Source: Planctomycetia bacterium
Lineage (GTDB): Bacteria > Planctomycetota > Planctomycetia > Planctomycetales > Planctomycetaceae
Reading direction: 5' to 3'
Assembly: GCA_016200145.1 (NCBI GenBank)
Contig: JACQFH010000272.1
Span: 1 to 34,433 of the forward strand
Length of the DNA stretch: 34,433 nt
Both the position numbers and the translations under genes were made by a program. Positions within the stretch are counted from its first letter, which is position 1. Each line of letters starts with the position of its first letter. Of the stretch, positions 3,447 to 20,378 are shown in pieces. A model generated the notes under the pieces. That model did no database searches, had not been told where the DNA came from, and worked only from the letters and a program-made list of their open reading frames with translations.

Positions 3447-4090
3447 CGCTCGCCCAGGTCAAATCCGAAATCTGATTTCTGTTTTGATTGGTATCGCCAA
3501 TTATGCGACTTTCCCTCCGCCATCCATTCGATGGCTGTCGCCAGCCGGCGTTCGCGCGTCTCGGCCTTTTTGGCTGCGGTGATCCAGTTGACGTATTCGC
3601 GCTTGTGGCTCGGGCTGAAGGCTTCAAATGTGGCCAGGGCTTTTCTATTCTGCTTGAGCGCCGCGGCCAGATCGGCGGGGACAATCACTTCCTTCGGCCG
3701 CTTCGTTTTCTTGCGAGCCGGCAGCTTGATTCCCTGTTGATTGAGCGCGACCGCCTCGCAGATGTAAGCGACCAGAATTCGATCGGGGGGGAGTTCGTCG
3801 ATGCTGGTGATTTTCGCGTGCCCCATCGACGCCTTGGCCATCATTGCCAGCAGGTTTTGTGGATCTTTCAGCAGCCTCGCCTTCCAGAAGCCGTACGCGG
3901 CGTGATTCTTGAACGCCGCCATGCTCCCCACGATTCCCTGATATTCGAAGTGCGGAAAGCCCCATTTCATCTTCTCTTCGATCTGCGGACACGCTTTGTG
4001 ATACAGGGCGCGGATTTTCTTCAGGATCGGCCTGGCAAACTTCGCCGATTTCTCGATGTAAGCGTCGAACTCAGGAGAACGGTTTTTCAT
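3437..4090 (-). CDS. YdeI/OmpD-associated family protein with N-terminal DUF1801-like domain
   Basis: The 217-residue protein starts MKNRSPEFDAYIEKSAKFA. Residues about 15-115 resemble the DUF1801 (YdhG-like) fold, with KIRALYHKACPQIEEKMKWG and FWKARLL. The C-terminal half (about 135-205) carries the YdeI/OmpD-associated helix region: IKLPARKKTKRPKEVIVPADL, then LAAALKQNRKALATFEAFSPSHKREYVNWI and AKKAETRERRLATAIEWMAEGK. YdeI-like proteins have been linked to peptide or bacteriocin tolerance in enterobacteria, but the biochemical role is unknown. It has no signal peptide. The gene stands alone, with 102 bases to the ROK gene start and a palindrome at its stop. Confidence 0.88.
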   Translation of the reverse strand: MKNRSPEFDAYIEKSAKFARPILKKIRALYHKACPQIEEKMKWGFPHFEYQGIVGSMAAFKNHAAYGFWKARLLKDPQNLLAMMAKASMGHAKITSIDELPPDRILVAYICEAVALNQQGIKLPARKKTKRPKEVIVPADLAAALKQNRKALATFEAFSPSHKREYVNWITAAKKAETRERRLATAIEWMAEGKSHNWRYQSKQKSDFGFDLGERRT

Positions 4091-4358: not shown

Positions 4359-7112
4359 ATGTTTCATCGTTTCCTGTTGTCGCTGGCAACCATTGCGTCG
4401 CTGGGATCCCTGATCGTAGCCGGTTTTGCACAAGATCAGGCGGCCAGTCCCAACGCCCTGGTCGGGCACACCGATCCCGTCTATGCGGTCGATTTTACGC
4501 CCGATGGGACGCAGATCGTCACGGGAAGCTTCGACAAGACCCTGAAACTGTGGGACGCGGCGACGAAGAAGCCGCTGCGAACATTCACCGGACACACCGG
4601 GCTCGTGCTGACGGTGGCCGTGTCCAAAGACGGCAGCCGGATCGCGTCGGGTTCGCTCGACAACACCGTCAAGCTCTGGGACGTGCCTGTCGCCGCGCCG
4701 AAAGCCAGCTACGAAGCGCACAAGCCCGCCGCCGGCGCTGTTGCGATCAAGCCCGATGGAACCATGTACGCCACGGGCGGCGCCGACAAGATTGTGAAGC
4801 TCTGGACGGCGGCCGACGGCAAGCCGGCACGCGACTTGGCCGGGCATGCAGCGCCTGTCTCCCGCCTCGATTTCCGCAAAGACAACAATCAGCTCGCGTC
4901 GGCAGACGATTCGGGAATCGTCCAGCTTTGGAACCCGGCTGATGGTGCAGCGCAGGGAGTTCTGGGCGCGCATCCGGGACCGATCACAGGCCTCGTCTAC
5001 CATCCGAACAATGCGCTGATCCTGACCTCCGGGGCCGACGGGCTGGTCAAGGCATGGCCGGTCGCAATTCCCGTGGCGCGCCCGATCGCCGGGCACGGCG
5101 GTGCGATCACGGCAGTGCACGTCAGCCCCAACGGCCAGTTTGTTGTTTCCGCCAGCGCCGACAAAACGGCCCGGCTGTGGACTCTCGCCGACGGCAAACC
5201 CGTCCGCAACTTCGACGGGCACGGCGGCATCGTGACGTCGATCGCCTTCAGCCCAAACGGCGCACAGGTCGTCACCGGCTGCGACGACAAGATTGCCAGA
5301 CTGTTCGACGCCAACAGCGGCGCACTGGTGAAGGCGTTCGCCGCGCTGCCTGCGGCGATCACAGCGGCAGCCGTCCATCCGAACGGAACGCAGGTGATCG
5401 TTGGAGACGCCGGGGGAGTACTGAAGGTGTTCAACGTCGCCGACGGCGCGGAAGTCCGGGCACTCGCGGGTCATGCCGGAAAGATCAGCGGGGCGATGTT
5501 TACCCCCAACCAGGCGCAGATCGTCACTGCGGGGGCCGACAAAACCCTGCGCGTCTGGAACGCGGCGGACGGCGCGCCAATCCGTTCGACTGACACCGGT
5601 GCGCCGGTCACCGCGCTCAGCGTTTCGATCGACAATGCTCTGGCTGCGGTTGGTGGAGAAGACAAGCTGATCCGGCTGTTTGCCCTTGCCGATGGTTCGG
5701 CCAAGGGGACGCTGGCGGGGCACACACAGCCGGCCTCGGCGGTCCACTTCGCCAACGACAATCTGAAACTCGTTTCGGCGGCGGCGGACCAGACGGTGCG
5801 AGTCTGGGACCTCAAGCTGAACCGGCAAATGCAGTACTTCGTCGACCACAAAGCCGCCGCGACGGCCGTGGCGTTCGCCCCTGACAACAAGACGATCGTC
5901 TCCGGCGGCGCAGACAACCAGCTCGTGGTCAATGCCGTGTCGCTGCAGCGGATGCACGTCGCCGACGAGAAGGGGGTCAATGCGCTGGCCCTGTCACAGA
6001 ACGGCGCGCAGTACGCCACCGCCGACGCCGATGGCAGCGTCAAAACATGGGACATCAACTCGGGAAACCCGGTCCGCGCGTTTGCCGGCCTGGCGGCGCC
6101 GGCGCTGTCGGTCGCGTTCAATCCGAACAACCAGCAACTGGCTGGGGGCGGGGCCGATAAAACGCTGCTGCTGTGGAACCTGAATGACGGCAATGTGCAG
6201 CTCAAGTACGCGGTCGAATCAGAAGCCACGCGGCTGGCCTTCAGCCCGGACGGCAAAAAACTGATCGCCGCGTCGAACGACATGGCGATTCGCACGTTCA
6301 ATCCCGTGGTCACGCCGCCGCAGCCGAATGTGTCGCCTCCTCCTCTTGCGGCCGTGCAGACCATGAAAGGCTCGACGGGAGCGATCTCCGGGCTGGCCTT
6401 TGCCCCCGACAACCGCACCGCGCTGTCGGTGGCCGCCGACGGTTTTCTGCGAGTCTGGCTGGTGGCGTCTCCCGACGTGGCGCTCAATCTGACGGGGCAT
6501 CAGTCGCAGATCTATTCGCTGGCATTCAGTCCCGACGGCAATCGGCTGGCCTCCGCATCGAACGACAAGACGGTGAAGATCTGGGACCTTGTAATGGGTA
6601 AGGAGCAGCGCACGCTGGCCGCACAAGGGGGCCCGGTGTATTCGCTGGCCTTCAGCCCCGATGGAACGACGCTGGTGACGTCGGGGGGCGACAAGACGAT
6701 CCGGCTGTTCGACGTGGCCAGCGGGAACGAAGTCCGCCAATTCGCCGGCGCCGAGGGGGCGGTCTATTCGGTCGCCTTCCATCCGCAGGGTCAGTTGATC
6801 GCCGCAGCGGGGGTCGACAAGAAGATCCGGCTGTGGAACGCGACTAATGCCCAGCTCGTCAACACGTTCGCCGGGCACACCGACGACATCTACCGCGTGC
6901 AGTTCAATCCCACGGGGACGCGAATGCTGTCGGTCGGCTATTCGGGAGTCGTCGATGTGTGGGACGTGAACAACCCGGCCAAGCCCCTGTTCAGCCAGAA
7001 ATTGGCCCTGGTGATCTACTCGGCAGGTTACTTTCCCGACGGCCGCCGCGTGGCCGTCACGGCAAGCGACGGCAAGACACACATCATGGACCTGCCCGCC
7101 GAGGCGCTGTGA
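4359..7112 (+). CDS. secreted WD40-repeat protein with 21 repeat units
   Basis: The 917-residue product begins with a signal peptide (MFHRFLLSLATIASLG, cleavage probably near residue 25). After it I count 21 consecutive WD40 units of about 41-43 residues from residue about 30 to the end, each with a variant of GH...V..FSPDG...SGS.DKT.KLWD. Twenty-one units would make three seven-bladed propellers. A proline-rich spacer (VVTPPQPNVSPPPLAA) breaks the series after unit 15. No enzyme domain or cytochrome motif is present, so a scaffold or binding role outside the cytoplasm is inferred. The start at 4359 is supported by GGGAG six bases upstream and by the signal peptide; 50 upstream in-frame codons overlap the hairpin leader. 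The next gene begins 12 bases downstream. Confidence 0.93.
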   Translation: MFHRFLLSLATIASLGSLIVAGFAQDQAASPNALVGHTDPVYAVDFTPDGTQIVTGSFDKTLKLWDAATKKPLRTFTGHTGLVLTVAVSKDGSRIASGSLDNTVKLWDVPVAAPKASYEAHKPAAGAVAIKPDGTMYATGGADKIVKLWTAADGKPARDLAGHAAPVSRLDFRKDNNQLASADDSGIVQLWNPADGAAQGVLGAHPGPITGLVYHPNNALILTSGADGLVKAWPVAIPVARPIAGHGGAITAVHVSPNGQFVVSASADKTARLWTLADGKPVRNFDGHGGIVTSIAFSPNGAQVVTGCDDKIARLFDANSGALVKAFAALPAAITAAAVHPNGTQVIVGDAGGVLKVFNVADGAEVRALAGHAGKISGAMFTPNQAQIVTAGADKTLRVWNAADGAPIRSTDTGAPVTALSVSIDNALAAVGGEDKLIRLFALADGSAKGTLAGHTQPASAVHFANDNLKLVSAAADQTVRVWDLKLNRQMQYFVDHKAAATAVAFAPDNKTIVSGGADNQLVVNAVSLQRMHVADEKGVNALALSQNGAQYATADADGSVKTWDINSGNPVRAFAGLAAPALSVAFNPNNQQLAGGGADKTLLLWNLNDGNVQLKYAVESEATRLAFSPDGKKLIAASNDMAIRTFNPVVTPPQPNVSPPPLAAVQTMKGSTGAISGLAFAPDNRTALSVAADGFLRVWLVASPDVALNLTGHQSQIYSLAFSPDGNRLASASNDKTVKIWDLVMGKEQRTLAAQGGPVYSLAFSPDGTTLVTSGGDKTIRLFDVASGNEVRQFAGAEGAVYSVAFHPQGQLIAAAGVDKKIRLWNATNAQLVNTFAGHTDDIYRVQFNPTGTRMLSVGYSGVVDVWDVNNPAKPLFSQKLALVIYSAGYFPDGRRVAVTASDGKTHIMDLPAEAL

Positions 7113-17482: not shown

Positions 17483-17486
<4 letters not shown>
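16794..17486 (-). CDS. lutC: LutC/YkgG family (LUD domain) protein
   Basis: The 230-residue protein is a LUD-domain protein. In the LutABC complex such proteins help oxidise L-lactate together with iron-sulfur proteins. Typical stretches are DWAVAETGTLALCS, GQGRVVSLLPPTYLAILE and ALVTGPSKTGDIELKLTTGVHGP, the last being the conserved LUD C-terminal motif. No lutA or lutB is in the window, so the partner must be elsewhere or the role differs. The ATG at 17486 overlaps the carA stop as ATGA, which indicates translational coupling. The frame is open further upstream, but only as a shadow of carA. Confidence 0.9.
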
Positions 17487-18625
<1,139 letters not shown>

Positions 18626-19232
18626 GAACCTTGCACCGTGGTTGCAACGAGGAGGGGGGAAAGACGCGGCGGGCACGACACCGTTGTCATTCACGAGTGT
18701 AGTGGCCGGCCCGCGAAATGGAAAGCAACCCCGGGGGTGCCGTGTGCGTCGTTGTCGTCGACGCCCGGAAACAATCCGAATCGGCATGCGCCACGTCGCG
18801 GCTCAAACTTTCAAACTTGTCGGAACCGCGGCTCAAACTTGTTGGAACACCTCTCCAAACTTGTCGCAACGTTTCGCGACGCGCAAGTTTGGAAATTCCC
18901 GCGATTTCATCCCAAACTTGCGCGCCTTCGTCAAACTTGCGCGCCTGTTCGCACTCCATTCCCAAGTCCTGTTACGTATGCCGCGCATGATTCTGCGTTC
19001 GCCAGCTTGTTCCGCCCCCCACTCCGACATGCATACTCCGAGTTGGCATTATTCGGCCGATCCTCGAGTCAGGTCAATGGGCCAATTCTCTATTTTTTCA
19101 ACATCAAGTGGGTATGCGTTTGGAACTCGCAGTATCTGACGCGTGGCGATCAAATTTCCCGGATTGCTTCGCCGTCGAGCTGGCTGCTCTAACACAGGGC
19201 GGCTTGTCCGTCCTGCGGCAGACCCCCTTTTC
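18626..19232. other. 607-base non-coding region upstream of carA
   Basis: No reading frame here has family resemblance or a proper ribosome-binding site; the frames present are driven by the repeats. The middle holds the CAAACTTG cluster. The part at 19071-19140 is AT-richer (CAATTCTCTATTTTTTCAAC) and lies downstream of the kinase gene. The carA promoter should be in this region, but I could not place a clear -35/-10 pair. Confidence 0.55.
18804..18946. repeat. cluster of seven CAAACTT(G) motifs with a 13-bp hairpin
   Basis: CAAACTTG or its near copy occurs at 18804 (CAAACTTT), 18812, 18834, 18856, 18913 and 18932, and inverted at 18884. Two longer direct repeats are visible: CGCGGCTCAAACTT (18797 and 18827) and CAAACTTGCGCGCCT (18913 and 18932). 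CGCGCAAGTTTGG (18880-18892) and CCAAACTTGCGCG (18912-18924) form a perfect 13-bp stem. The spacings (8, 22, 22, 28, 29 and 19 bases) are irregular and the spacers too short for CRISPR. The cluster starts about 180 bases upstream of carA, so an operator array or a degenerate repeat family is possible. Confidence 0.7.
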
Positions 19233-20378
19233 TCATTCCTCGACGTTGCCGATAAACGTCTTGTCGTACACGGCGGTTGACGTCGACGGGGTTGGAGAGT
19301 GCTCGCCGGAGGCGGCCCGTTCCAACTCACGCTCATGCCGGCCCCACCAGGCGTCGGATTCTTCGATCGACCAGCCGGTCGCCGCAACGCTGCGCGCCAG
19401 CAGCAGCGACAGGTCGCGCGCCGTCTGCGGACGTTTAGCGCGGGTCTTTTCGAGACACGCCAGCAGAGCGCTTTCCAGCTCGGGAGAAACGGGCCTGCCC
19501 AGCCGCTGTGAAGGCGGATCGGGGAGTCGCGTAATGTGCTGCTGGCACAGGTCGACGATGCTCGCCGCGTCGAAGACAGGGCGCCCCGTGAGCAGGAAAT
19601 AACCTACCGCGCCCACCGCGTACAGATCGCTGCGGGCGTCGACCGCCTGCGGCGTCTGGATGGCTTCCGGTGACATATAAAGTGGCGTTCCCGTAAGCCC
19701 GCCTGACGCGGTCAGCCCCGCCTGCTTGGCTTCGTCAATTGCCTTGACGAGGCCGAAATCGAGCACCTTGACGACGTCGGGTTCGGCTCCGCGCCGGTTG
19801 AGCATGATGTTGGCCGGCTTGATGTCGCGGTGGACAAGCCCCAGCGAGTGGGCTTCGTACAGCGACCCGCAGATCTGCTGCAGAATGTGGATCACTCGCG
19901 ATTCGGACTGCGGCCCATACTTGTCGACAAGCGCCTGCAGGTCGATTCCGTCGAGAAATTCCATGGCGTAGTAGAAGACGCCCTCGTCGGTGCGCCCGTA
20001 GTCGTAAATCGCCACTGTGTTGGGGTGGTTGAGCTGGCACGTGATCTGCACCTCCCGCTCGAACCGCTCAATCGACCCCTCATTGACTTTGTCGACGCTC
20101 AGCAATTTGATGGCGGTCGGTCGGCGCAAAATCGCGTGGAATCCCTTATAGACCGTCCCCATGCCCCCCGCGCCGAGTTTCTTTTCCAGCCGGTACTGGC
20201 CGAGTTTTTTCGATTCAATTGCCGCCTTCTGCGCTTCACGCTGCATCCGGGCCACGACAACGGAAAACACGAAGATGGCGACCGAGCAGAGGGCCAGCAG
20301 CGCGAACAGGCTCCAGAACGTCCATCGCAGGATCATCAGTGGACGATACGCTTCGGCCAGGTCGATCTCGGCGGCCAC
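19233..20378 (-). CDS. Hanks-type Ser/Thr protein kinase, C-terminal half of a split sensor kinase
   Basis: The part from GTG 20378 has a membrane helix (residues about 19-43, FWSLFALLALCSVAIFVFSV) followed by a complete kinase domain: GAGGMGTVY, AIKLL with the catalytic lysine, VHRDIKPANIML, DFGLVK and GTPLYMSPEAI. A tail of about 60 residues follows. The same frame continues upstream for 22 sense codons (20379-20444, containing YRDYRGVPSAGAWTWLP) until a TGA at 20445-20447. Beyond that stop the sensor half is encoded, so the two are pieces of one gene. If the stop is real, this half could only be made by internal initiation or readthrough. The kinase would phosphorylate cytoplasmic targets in response to an outside signal. 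Confidence 0.85.
   Translation of the reverse strand: MAAEIDLAEAYRPLMILRWTFWSLFALLALCSVAIFVFSVVVARMQREAQKAAIESKKLGQYRLEKKLGAGGMGTVYKGFHAILRRPTAIKLLSVDKVNEGSIERFEREVQITCQLNHPNTVAIYDYGRTDEGVFYYAMEFLDGIDLQALVDKYGPQSESRVIHILQQICGSLYEAHSLGLVHRDIKPANIMLNRRGAEPDVVKVLDFGLVKAIDEAKQAGLTASGGLTGTPLYMSPEAIQTPQAVDARSDLYAVGAVGYFLLTGRPVFDAASIVDLCQQHITRLPDPPSQRLGRPVSPELESALLACLEKTRAKRPQTARDLSLLLARSVAATGWSIEESDAWWGRHERELERAASGEHSPTPSTSTAVYDKTFIGNVEE

Follow-up and report, generated by a model that had tools for sequence, protein, structure and literature searches.

A repeat cluster upstream of carA in a planctomycete is probably a stray replication-origin-like binding array

Overview

A cluster of short repeats lies upstream of the carA gene in a planctomycete genome, within the stretch of 34,433 bases analysed here (the window). 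The cluster is probably a stray binding array that resembles a replication origin, and no switch for carA. In the reading favoured here, which is given a probability of roughly 0.58, it represents the 3′ cis-acting, origin-type array of a mobile replicon family, present here alone and with no gene, and the winged helix of an ATPase would be the reader of its sites. Computation reveals further copies of the array, their geometry, the switching of their motif, their position 3′ of AAA_25 genes and a set of deletion derivatives. The window's own genome is termed G000 and that of a sister species G001; C-numbers denote contigs and L-numbers extracted loci.

The repeat cluster and its surroundings

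The array is flanked on one side by the likely start of carA and on the other by the 3′ end of a gene for a protein kinase (Table 1). Its minus strand corresponds to the orientation in which an AAA_25 gene precedes the array, as is seen in the copy on C223. Several frames in the open-reading-frame list cross the array, and two custom profiles detected no AAA_25 or integrase frame in the window.

Table 1. Positions of the array, its sites and the neighbouring features in the window, with the array motifs of two related proteins
Feature	Position	Strand	Remarks
carA (carbamoyl-phosphate synthase small chain), neighbour outside the element	17483–18625	−	PF00988, PF00117; likely ATG read from the sequence
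Solo array, class CAAACTTG (CAAGTTTG)	18797–18946	−	Profile R1 match C544:18809-18961 minus, E 7.6e-26; copy belongs to the R1 training set
Degenerate seventh site CAAACTTT	18804–18811	−	7/8 match; also scored in the geometry scan
Site 6	18812–18819	−	Exact site
Site 5	18834–18841	−	Exact site; 22 bp to site 6
Site 4	18856–18863	−	Exact site; 22 bp to site 5
Site 3, sole inverted site, other hairpin arm	18884–18891	+	Exact site; 28 bp to site 4
Site 2, hairpin arm	18913–18920	−	Exact site; 29 bp to the inverted site
Site 1 (gene orientation)	18932–18939	−	Exact site; 19 bp to site 2
Perfect 13-bp inverted repeat, centre conserved between motif classes	18880–18924		Arms 18880–18892 and 18912–18924
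57-bp tract in common with solo copy L007 (C477), ending TCTATTTTT	19041–19097		Local score 38 versus shuffle maximum 27; 0/500 shuffles as high
Ser/Thr protein kinase gene, neighbour outside the element	19233–20378	−	PF00069
Array motif per protein			C223, CAAACTTG array; C63, CCCCCCACGATTGG array

The initial annotation counted seven copies of an 8-base motif, one of them inverted, and judged their density to be far above chance. The density holds: six exact CAAACTTG sites are present against 0.76 expected per window, none of 100 shuffles reaches six, and all the exact sites of the window fall inside the cluster at 18812–18939. The single inversion is also correct, but the seventh copy is a 7/8 match. 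The two longer duplicated units (CGCGGCTCAAACTT at 18797 and 18827; CAAACTTGCGCGCCT at 18913 and 18932) and the perfect 13-bp inverted repeat, with arms 19 nt apart, proved real as well. A further unit, CAAACTTGTCGGAAC, is at 18812 and recurs at 18834 and 18856 with 93% identity. The centre between the arms has 8/19 G+C compared with 63% for the window; it is thus G+C-poorer than its surroundings, yet is not an AT-rich melting region as in the origins of phage-related satellites (PICIs).

At 19041–19097, the 57-bp tract in common with another solo copy probably represents the distal portion of the solo element. It is absent from L002 (C509), where the score is 15 and 496/500 shuffles are as high, and the polarity of its end differs from that of the 5′ ends of fuller copies.

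Copies elsewhere in the genome and the carA question

A 181-bp query of the array has seven matches in its own genome, i.e. itself and copies on C509, C371, C711, C593, C223 and C477, at 74–81% identity. The pattern CAAACTTG N5-25 CAAACTTG occurs 16 times in the genome, each time in one of these seven elements; its reversed form, as a control, has no match. A 151-bp query had no match in a further 58 genomes, which include one from the same genus, and the array was likewise unmatched in phage and plasmid records.

These results bear on the proposal that the cluster is an operator array controlling carA or the adjoining kinase gene. The likely start of carA, the ATG at 18625 (minus strand), is 172 bp downstream of the array edge, and the layout resembles that of binding sites. 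A carA operator would be expected to be conserved near carA in relatives and absent elsewhere. However, six same-motif copies adjoin unrelated genes, and none of the 58 genomes, that of the same genus included, has a match. A carA operator is rejected for these two reasons, and control of either neighbour is highly improbable. Similar clusters elsewhere and a lack of conservation near carA are what the initial annotation itself had named as grounds for abandoning the idea. The more general part of its suggestion, an array of protein-binding sites, does fit the conservation of site columns described below. The cluster had also been considered a young tandem-duplicating repeat; this finds no favour, as the copies are diverged from the window copy by the identities given above, are dispersed, and have a fixed geometry.

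Fixed geometry and motif switching

The window copy and the six others make up the CAAACTTG family, with the same motif in the same order. Site columns, as defined on the window copy, are 95% identical over the seven copies and spacers 71% (48 versus 79 columns; Mann-Whitney p 2e-8). When the other six copies are compared among themselves, the values are 94% and 74% (p 1.4e-6).

In gene orientation, the sites follow each other at steps of about 20, 28 (to the inverted site), 28 and 22 bp, with 22 bp again in the CAAGTTTG class. The steps are constant within 1 bp in 13 of 14 copies, which represent three motif classes; the exception is C429b, where site 2 is unmatched. Some sites deviate from the class motif by one or two bases, and the geometry scan shows one extra degenerate match each in C63 and the window copy. 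Site groups are present on both sides of the centre in 14 copies, and the motif classes share a conserved sequence (AAGAAAC...TTTCC) at this centre, between the inverted pair. The array of C63 consists of GCCCCCCACGATTGG sites, another motif at nearly the same spacing as that of the CAAACTTG class. Between paralogous elements, array geometry is kept while the recognised motif is replaced. A fixed geometry with a replaced motif beside paralogous proteins makes the specificity of initiator for origin directly testable.

A search of G000 with a profile built from the 14 copies (R1) gives 25 matches with an E-value of at most 0.01. Of these, three (C369, C608, C660) are opposite-strand repeats of listed arrays, which leaves at least 22 arrays, 14 of them the training copies; the number is a lower bound, as at most 72 candidates were scored per genome, 72 of 1972 in the case of G000. 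The copies are spread over many different contigs. The sister genome G001 has at least three arrays with the motif GCACGGTTGG, similar in design by eye, and no R1 array was found in 38 other genomes among the candidates scored, up to 72 in each.

Several arrays have additional structure. Tandem double arrays are found at L138 1650–2090 and at C467 214–469 (L245, L249); the double array in C429 is of two motif classes, and the left arm of C429b resembles the CAAGTTTG class. A hairpin-like tract (CTCTCTATTTTTTGCGGCT..AGCCGCAAAAAAT) is located downstream of three arrays (L044 3765–3828, L140 2232–2295 and L138 1780–1848).

The conserved hairpin raises the question of whether the unit is a regulatory or structural RNA, with the hairpin and the flanking sequence working at transcript level, e.g. 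as a leader or terminator. The minus strand folds with −57.6 kcal/mol (z −2.57; 3/200 shuffles as good). Stem cells are paired in 89% across motif classes, with a shuffle mean of 72% (0/500), and the covariation score is 0.372 relative to a shuffle mean of 0.123 (0/500) and a slid maximum of 0.198. On the other hand, the pairs changed on both sides, 7 of 14, are matched by 60/500 shuffles, L001 has no Rfam match, and the copies adjoin unrelated genes. In addition, the stem and the direct sites beyond it change in concert, for which pairing gives no account. A changed DNA recognition motif therefore explains both changes, better than RNA pairing does. The suggestion of a regulatory RNA, made in the initial annotation, thus gains little, and an RNA function is very unlikely.

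Fuller elements and deleted copies

On C223, an open frame of 529 amino acids that matches AAA_25 extends into the array; the contig stops before the 5′ end of the gene. A paralogue on C63, whose protein is 46% identical to that of C223, also has an AAA_25 match and an array at its 3′ end. In both, the array is directly 3′ of the AAA_25 gene; the window copy lacks an adjacent AAA frame. C371, C711 and C593 keep the last part of a C223-type gene but the body is gone, and C660, C740, C608, C429, C369 and C401 are copies with related motifs in which the gene is partly or wholly missing. The fuller copies have common 5′ ends, TTTTCTATTTTT; in a second group this is followed by an AT-rich, TTGACA/TATAAT-like stretch, which looks like a promoter at the other end of the element. 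The 3′ end of the element recurs at ...TTGG. Repeats of the GGAATTCGGAATTC type are seen near several AAA_25 genes (L045 1142–1199, L046 1621–1648, L044 4052–4099 and L038 5105–5144), and may be a general genome repeat.

The array might be viewed as the cis-acting end, with several transposase-type binding sites, of a MITE-like element that is moved in trans, the AAA_25 gene being cargo or a helper ATPase. This would suit the many short copies with internal deletions, a form of dispersal that is unusual for origins, as well as the recurrent 5′ and 3′ ends and the existence of solo arrays. C371 (L003) and C711 (L004) are alike over 451 bp at 87%, and therefore the deleted form seems to have multiplied. 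However, the 5′ end TTTTCTATTTTT is by eye unlike the array end, so that there are no terminal inverted repeats, and no target-site duplication was seen by eye at about nine copies. Integrase is missing from the 15 G000 loci scanned, and from the window and eight further G000 array loci, many with short flanks; this counts against the origin reading as well. Elsewhere, the array accompanies primase/helicase-type genes. A transposon end is a possible but doubtful explanation.

The AAA_25 protein

AAA_25 matches were obtained for the C223, C63 and C187 proteins. At the position where the five other relatives in the alignment show GxxxxGK(S/T), the C63 protein has GDETRIAS and the C223 protein GDDTRSAS. 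With the Walker A (ATP-site) lysine lost, these two ATPases, the ones tied to the geometry described here, are from their sequence unlikely to be working helicases, which speaks against the origin reading. Another point against it is the C187 paralogue in G000, which has an intact Walker A and a clear array but a different geometry. Codon-position agreement between C63 and C223 is 67/67/47.5% over 324 codons, with no stop. This pattern suggests that the protein has been under selection since the two copies diverged. The two AAA_25 paralogues with a degenerate Walker A in an open, conserved frame are at L044 2150–3637 and L038 3558–5147.

A structural model was made of a viral homologue, L192 (mean pLDDT 80.6). 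After the ATPase part, the C-terminus of this homologue has three helices and a beta hairpin, a predicted fold that is read as a winged helix. Foldseek matches of the model are RecA-family chains, mostly Rad51/RadA, and include RepA of RSF1010.

Searches with the proteins gave little else. There is no Prim-Pol match in the five G000 AAA_25 proteins scanned (C223, C187, C63, C712, C610). PHROGs assigns L045, L078, L082 and L083 to primase/helicase and unknown families and has nothing for the C63 and C223 proteins. A PADLOC scan of six AAA proteins yielded one weak match, mads_8 (E 7e-4), for L082; NCBIfam gave just two weak RadA matches, far below cut-off; and a PDB sequence search found nothing for the C63 protein. 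A search of named genomes, which possibly lacks the genome of the window itself, found no relatives of the C63 protein.

Partition systems, too, have arrays of sites near an ATPase gene, and the cluster could belong to a centromere-like partition site or to a REP-type palindrome family; a palindrome family in genome G144 does cluster round an AAA_25 gene (see below). Against this, the ATPases match AAA_25, and the homologue model matches the RecA family, with ParA absent among the 50 matches listed. The G000 copies are on many different contigs. REP sequences are 20–40 bp palindromes of high copy number, while the present unit is about 150 bp with at least 22 copies found. A partition or REP-type cluster is very unlikely.

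Origin-type arrays and a proposed mechanism

The position and layout of the array family match those of PICI and pRN1 origins, and it is by this analogy that it is read as a putative origin-type array. In PICI/SaPI elements the origin is found just 3′ of the initiator gene (pri/rep) and has two iteron groups, with iteron sequences shown for each element (PMC6092414). Similarly, the array is immediately 3′ of the gene in the C223 and C63 copies, with site groups on either side of the centre. The differences from the PICI elements described in that source are that the window copy has no gene, that integrase is missing from the scanned G000 loci, that many solo and deleted copies are present in one genome, and that the centre is a conserved inverted pair in place of an AT-rich melting region.

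Plasmid pRN1 requires for its replication a stem-loop of roughly 100 bp 3′ of a gene for a primase-helicase-winged-helix protein; its relatives keep the stem-loop structure with a different sequence, and the authors report similar loops in phages (PMC4234260). The stem of the present arrays is also kept over three motif classes, by the pairing and covariation values given above, although concerted motif change predicts this too and shuffles match the both-side changes in 60 of 500 cases. The ATPase here is of the AAA_25 type and not the SF3 helicase of pRN1, and direct sites at constant intervals lie on both sides of the hairpin.

PrimPol elements are integrated elements with a primase fused to RepA-type helicase and winged-helix domains (PMC5862659). 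Locus L078, with Prim-Pol fused to AAA_25 and an integrase present, resembles these. Differences are that the portion of that source available does not describe 3′ arrays or solo copies, and that the five G000 proteins have no Prim-Pol match.

In the predicted fold of the viral homologue, the AAA_25 protein resembles the RecA-type RepA helicase of RSF1010. The iterons of that plasmid have a direct spacing of about 20–22 bp, as do direct sites here, and are bound by a separate protein.

The following model is proposed, in which binding, origin function and mode of dispersal are what we infer. A fuller element has one gene, for an ATPase of the AAA_25 (RepA/RecA) type, with the array behind it; relatives of this ATPase have a predicted C-terminal winged helix. 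The winged helix would bind sites of 8–10 bp. As two groups of sites flank the inverted pair round the conserved centre, the bound protein could assemble over the hairpin and centre, and the array might then act as an iteron/stem-loop replication origin, in the manner of the origins directly behind the initiator gene in PICI satellites and in plasmids of the pRN1 kind. The window copy would be a solo relic, or a passive copy acted on in trans; the gene is gone from the window, and any activity would depend on protein supplied in trans.

A further, unlikely idea is that a captured replicon gave rise to immunity by origin decoys. The scattered solo arrays would be chromosomal decoy origins and the two Walker-A-dead AAA_25 proteins dominant-negative initiators. 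Between them they would occupy the origins of invading phage or satellite replicons that have matching iterons, or sequester the initiator of these replicons. The idea is based on the dead Walker A and on an engineered precedent, where a plasmid with ectopic lambda origins prevents the growth of lambda (PMC4488673). If true, motif switching at fixed geometry would represent an arms race over initiator specificity, and, if confirmed, inactivated initiators together with chromosomal copies of an origin would form a simple defence against replicons. No literature was found on such elements in Planctomycetes, where the papers listed looked unrelated by their titles, or on dispersed or decoy chromosomal origins; this does not prove that none is in print. 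For the origin-type reading favoured above, a working rule suggests itself for a set of unexplained intergenic repeats in these bacteria: one should seek an AAA_25 gene that is followed by an array of the motif in question.

AAA_25 genes and arrays in other genomes

Matches to the C63 protein are present in 15/41 genomes of the family and, at E 1e-25, in 15/397 of the class, own genome included in both. In the class search a second match near 49% (C223) is found in G000 only, and the other listed matches are at 30–34%.

The 3′ flanks of AAA_25 genes were scored for short repeats. In a first set, 13 of 28 scored loci beat all 20 shuffles, with arrays not all directly behind the gene; five of the 28 are from G000, and 4 of 32 had been dropped for short flanks. 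The other 15 homologues have no array above shuffles, although the score misses degenerate arrays, and C63 itself failed to beat the shuffles. In the class set, 12/14 loci scored above all 30 shuffles; three loci are also in the first set, L157, L163 and L165 are from one genus and L158 and L160 from another, the top score of L164 is from a different repeat than its hairpin, and the flank of L158 (match at 1361–2347) was taken 140 bp too far downstream.

Among 40 viral contigs, one of which was dropped for a short flank, 21/39 3′ flanks reach score 5 compared with 83/484 control windows and 7/37 5′ flanks. De-duplication removed six contigs, judged by like scores or the same sample, and left 16/33 loci at score 5 compared with 69/416 control windows; at score 7 the numbers are 8/33 and 9/416 (p 5e-6). 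The association of AAA_25 genes, sometimes with Prim-Pol, with 3′ short-repeat arrays is strong, and far from universal. The homologues lacking an array above shuffles (15/28), and the 17/33 viral loci below score 5, weigh against the origin reading.

Integrase was found in 9/25 loci outside G000 and in 0/15 within it. Locus L174 has serine recombinase and phage capsid genes, and L173 has a portal gene.

Neither the motif nor the core is diagnostic when taken alone. Two CAAACTTG sites 22 bp apart occur in many unrelated genomes among the matches listed, and the bare motif therefore means little. Nothing was found in ten CAAACTTG loci with the custom AAA_25 profile. Twenty-six loci picked from the motif pattern and earlier searches gave three weak partial R1 matches, the best with E 5e-5. 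A 17-base core was considered as a free-standing mobile motif and rejected: outside G000 and G001 its matches look by eye like ordinary DNA without arrays, and the core alone is therefore no marker.

CAAACTTG-type repeat rows are present in a Thermogutta MAG and a Pirellulaceae MAG (L339 about 3850–3930 and L327 about 4650–4690), with no AAA_25 frame at either by the custom profile. In the viral contig L281, CAAGTTTG sites at 3831–3935, three of them 22 bp apart, are within a Phage_rep_O gene. The lambda-type origin lies inside gene O, and L281 appears to be of this known type; the proteins have no homology to those described here, and chance likeness of a short motif is possible.

In L176 (G144:C1:1602000-1618000), a palindrome with the arms GTTGATCAC and GTGATCAACCTTGT recurs around an AAA_25 gene and at the 3′ end of that gene. 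The genome has 22 exact 14-mers of it, of which 16 cluster in a stretch of about 13 kb and the other 6 are on contig C5, and one copy is inside what we take to be an flhF-like open reading frame. In genome G034, a CGCGAACTT array is found 3′ of an AAA_25 gene (L083 7750–8300), and a second array about 300 bp further on precedes what is presumably an rsmH-like gene.
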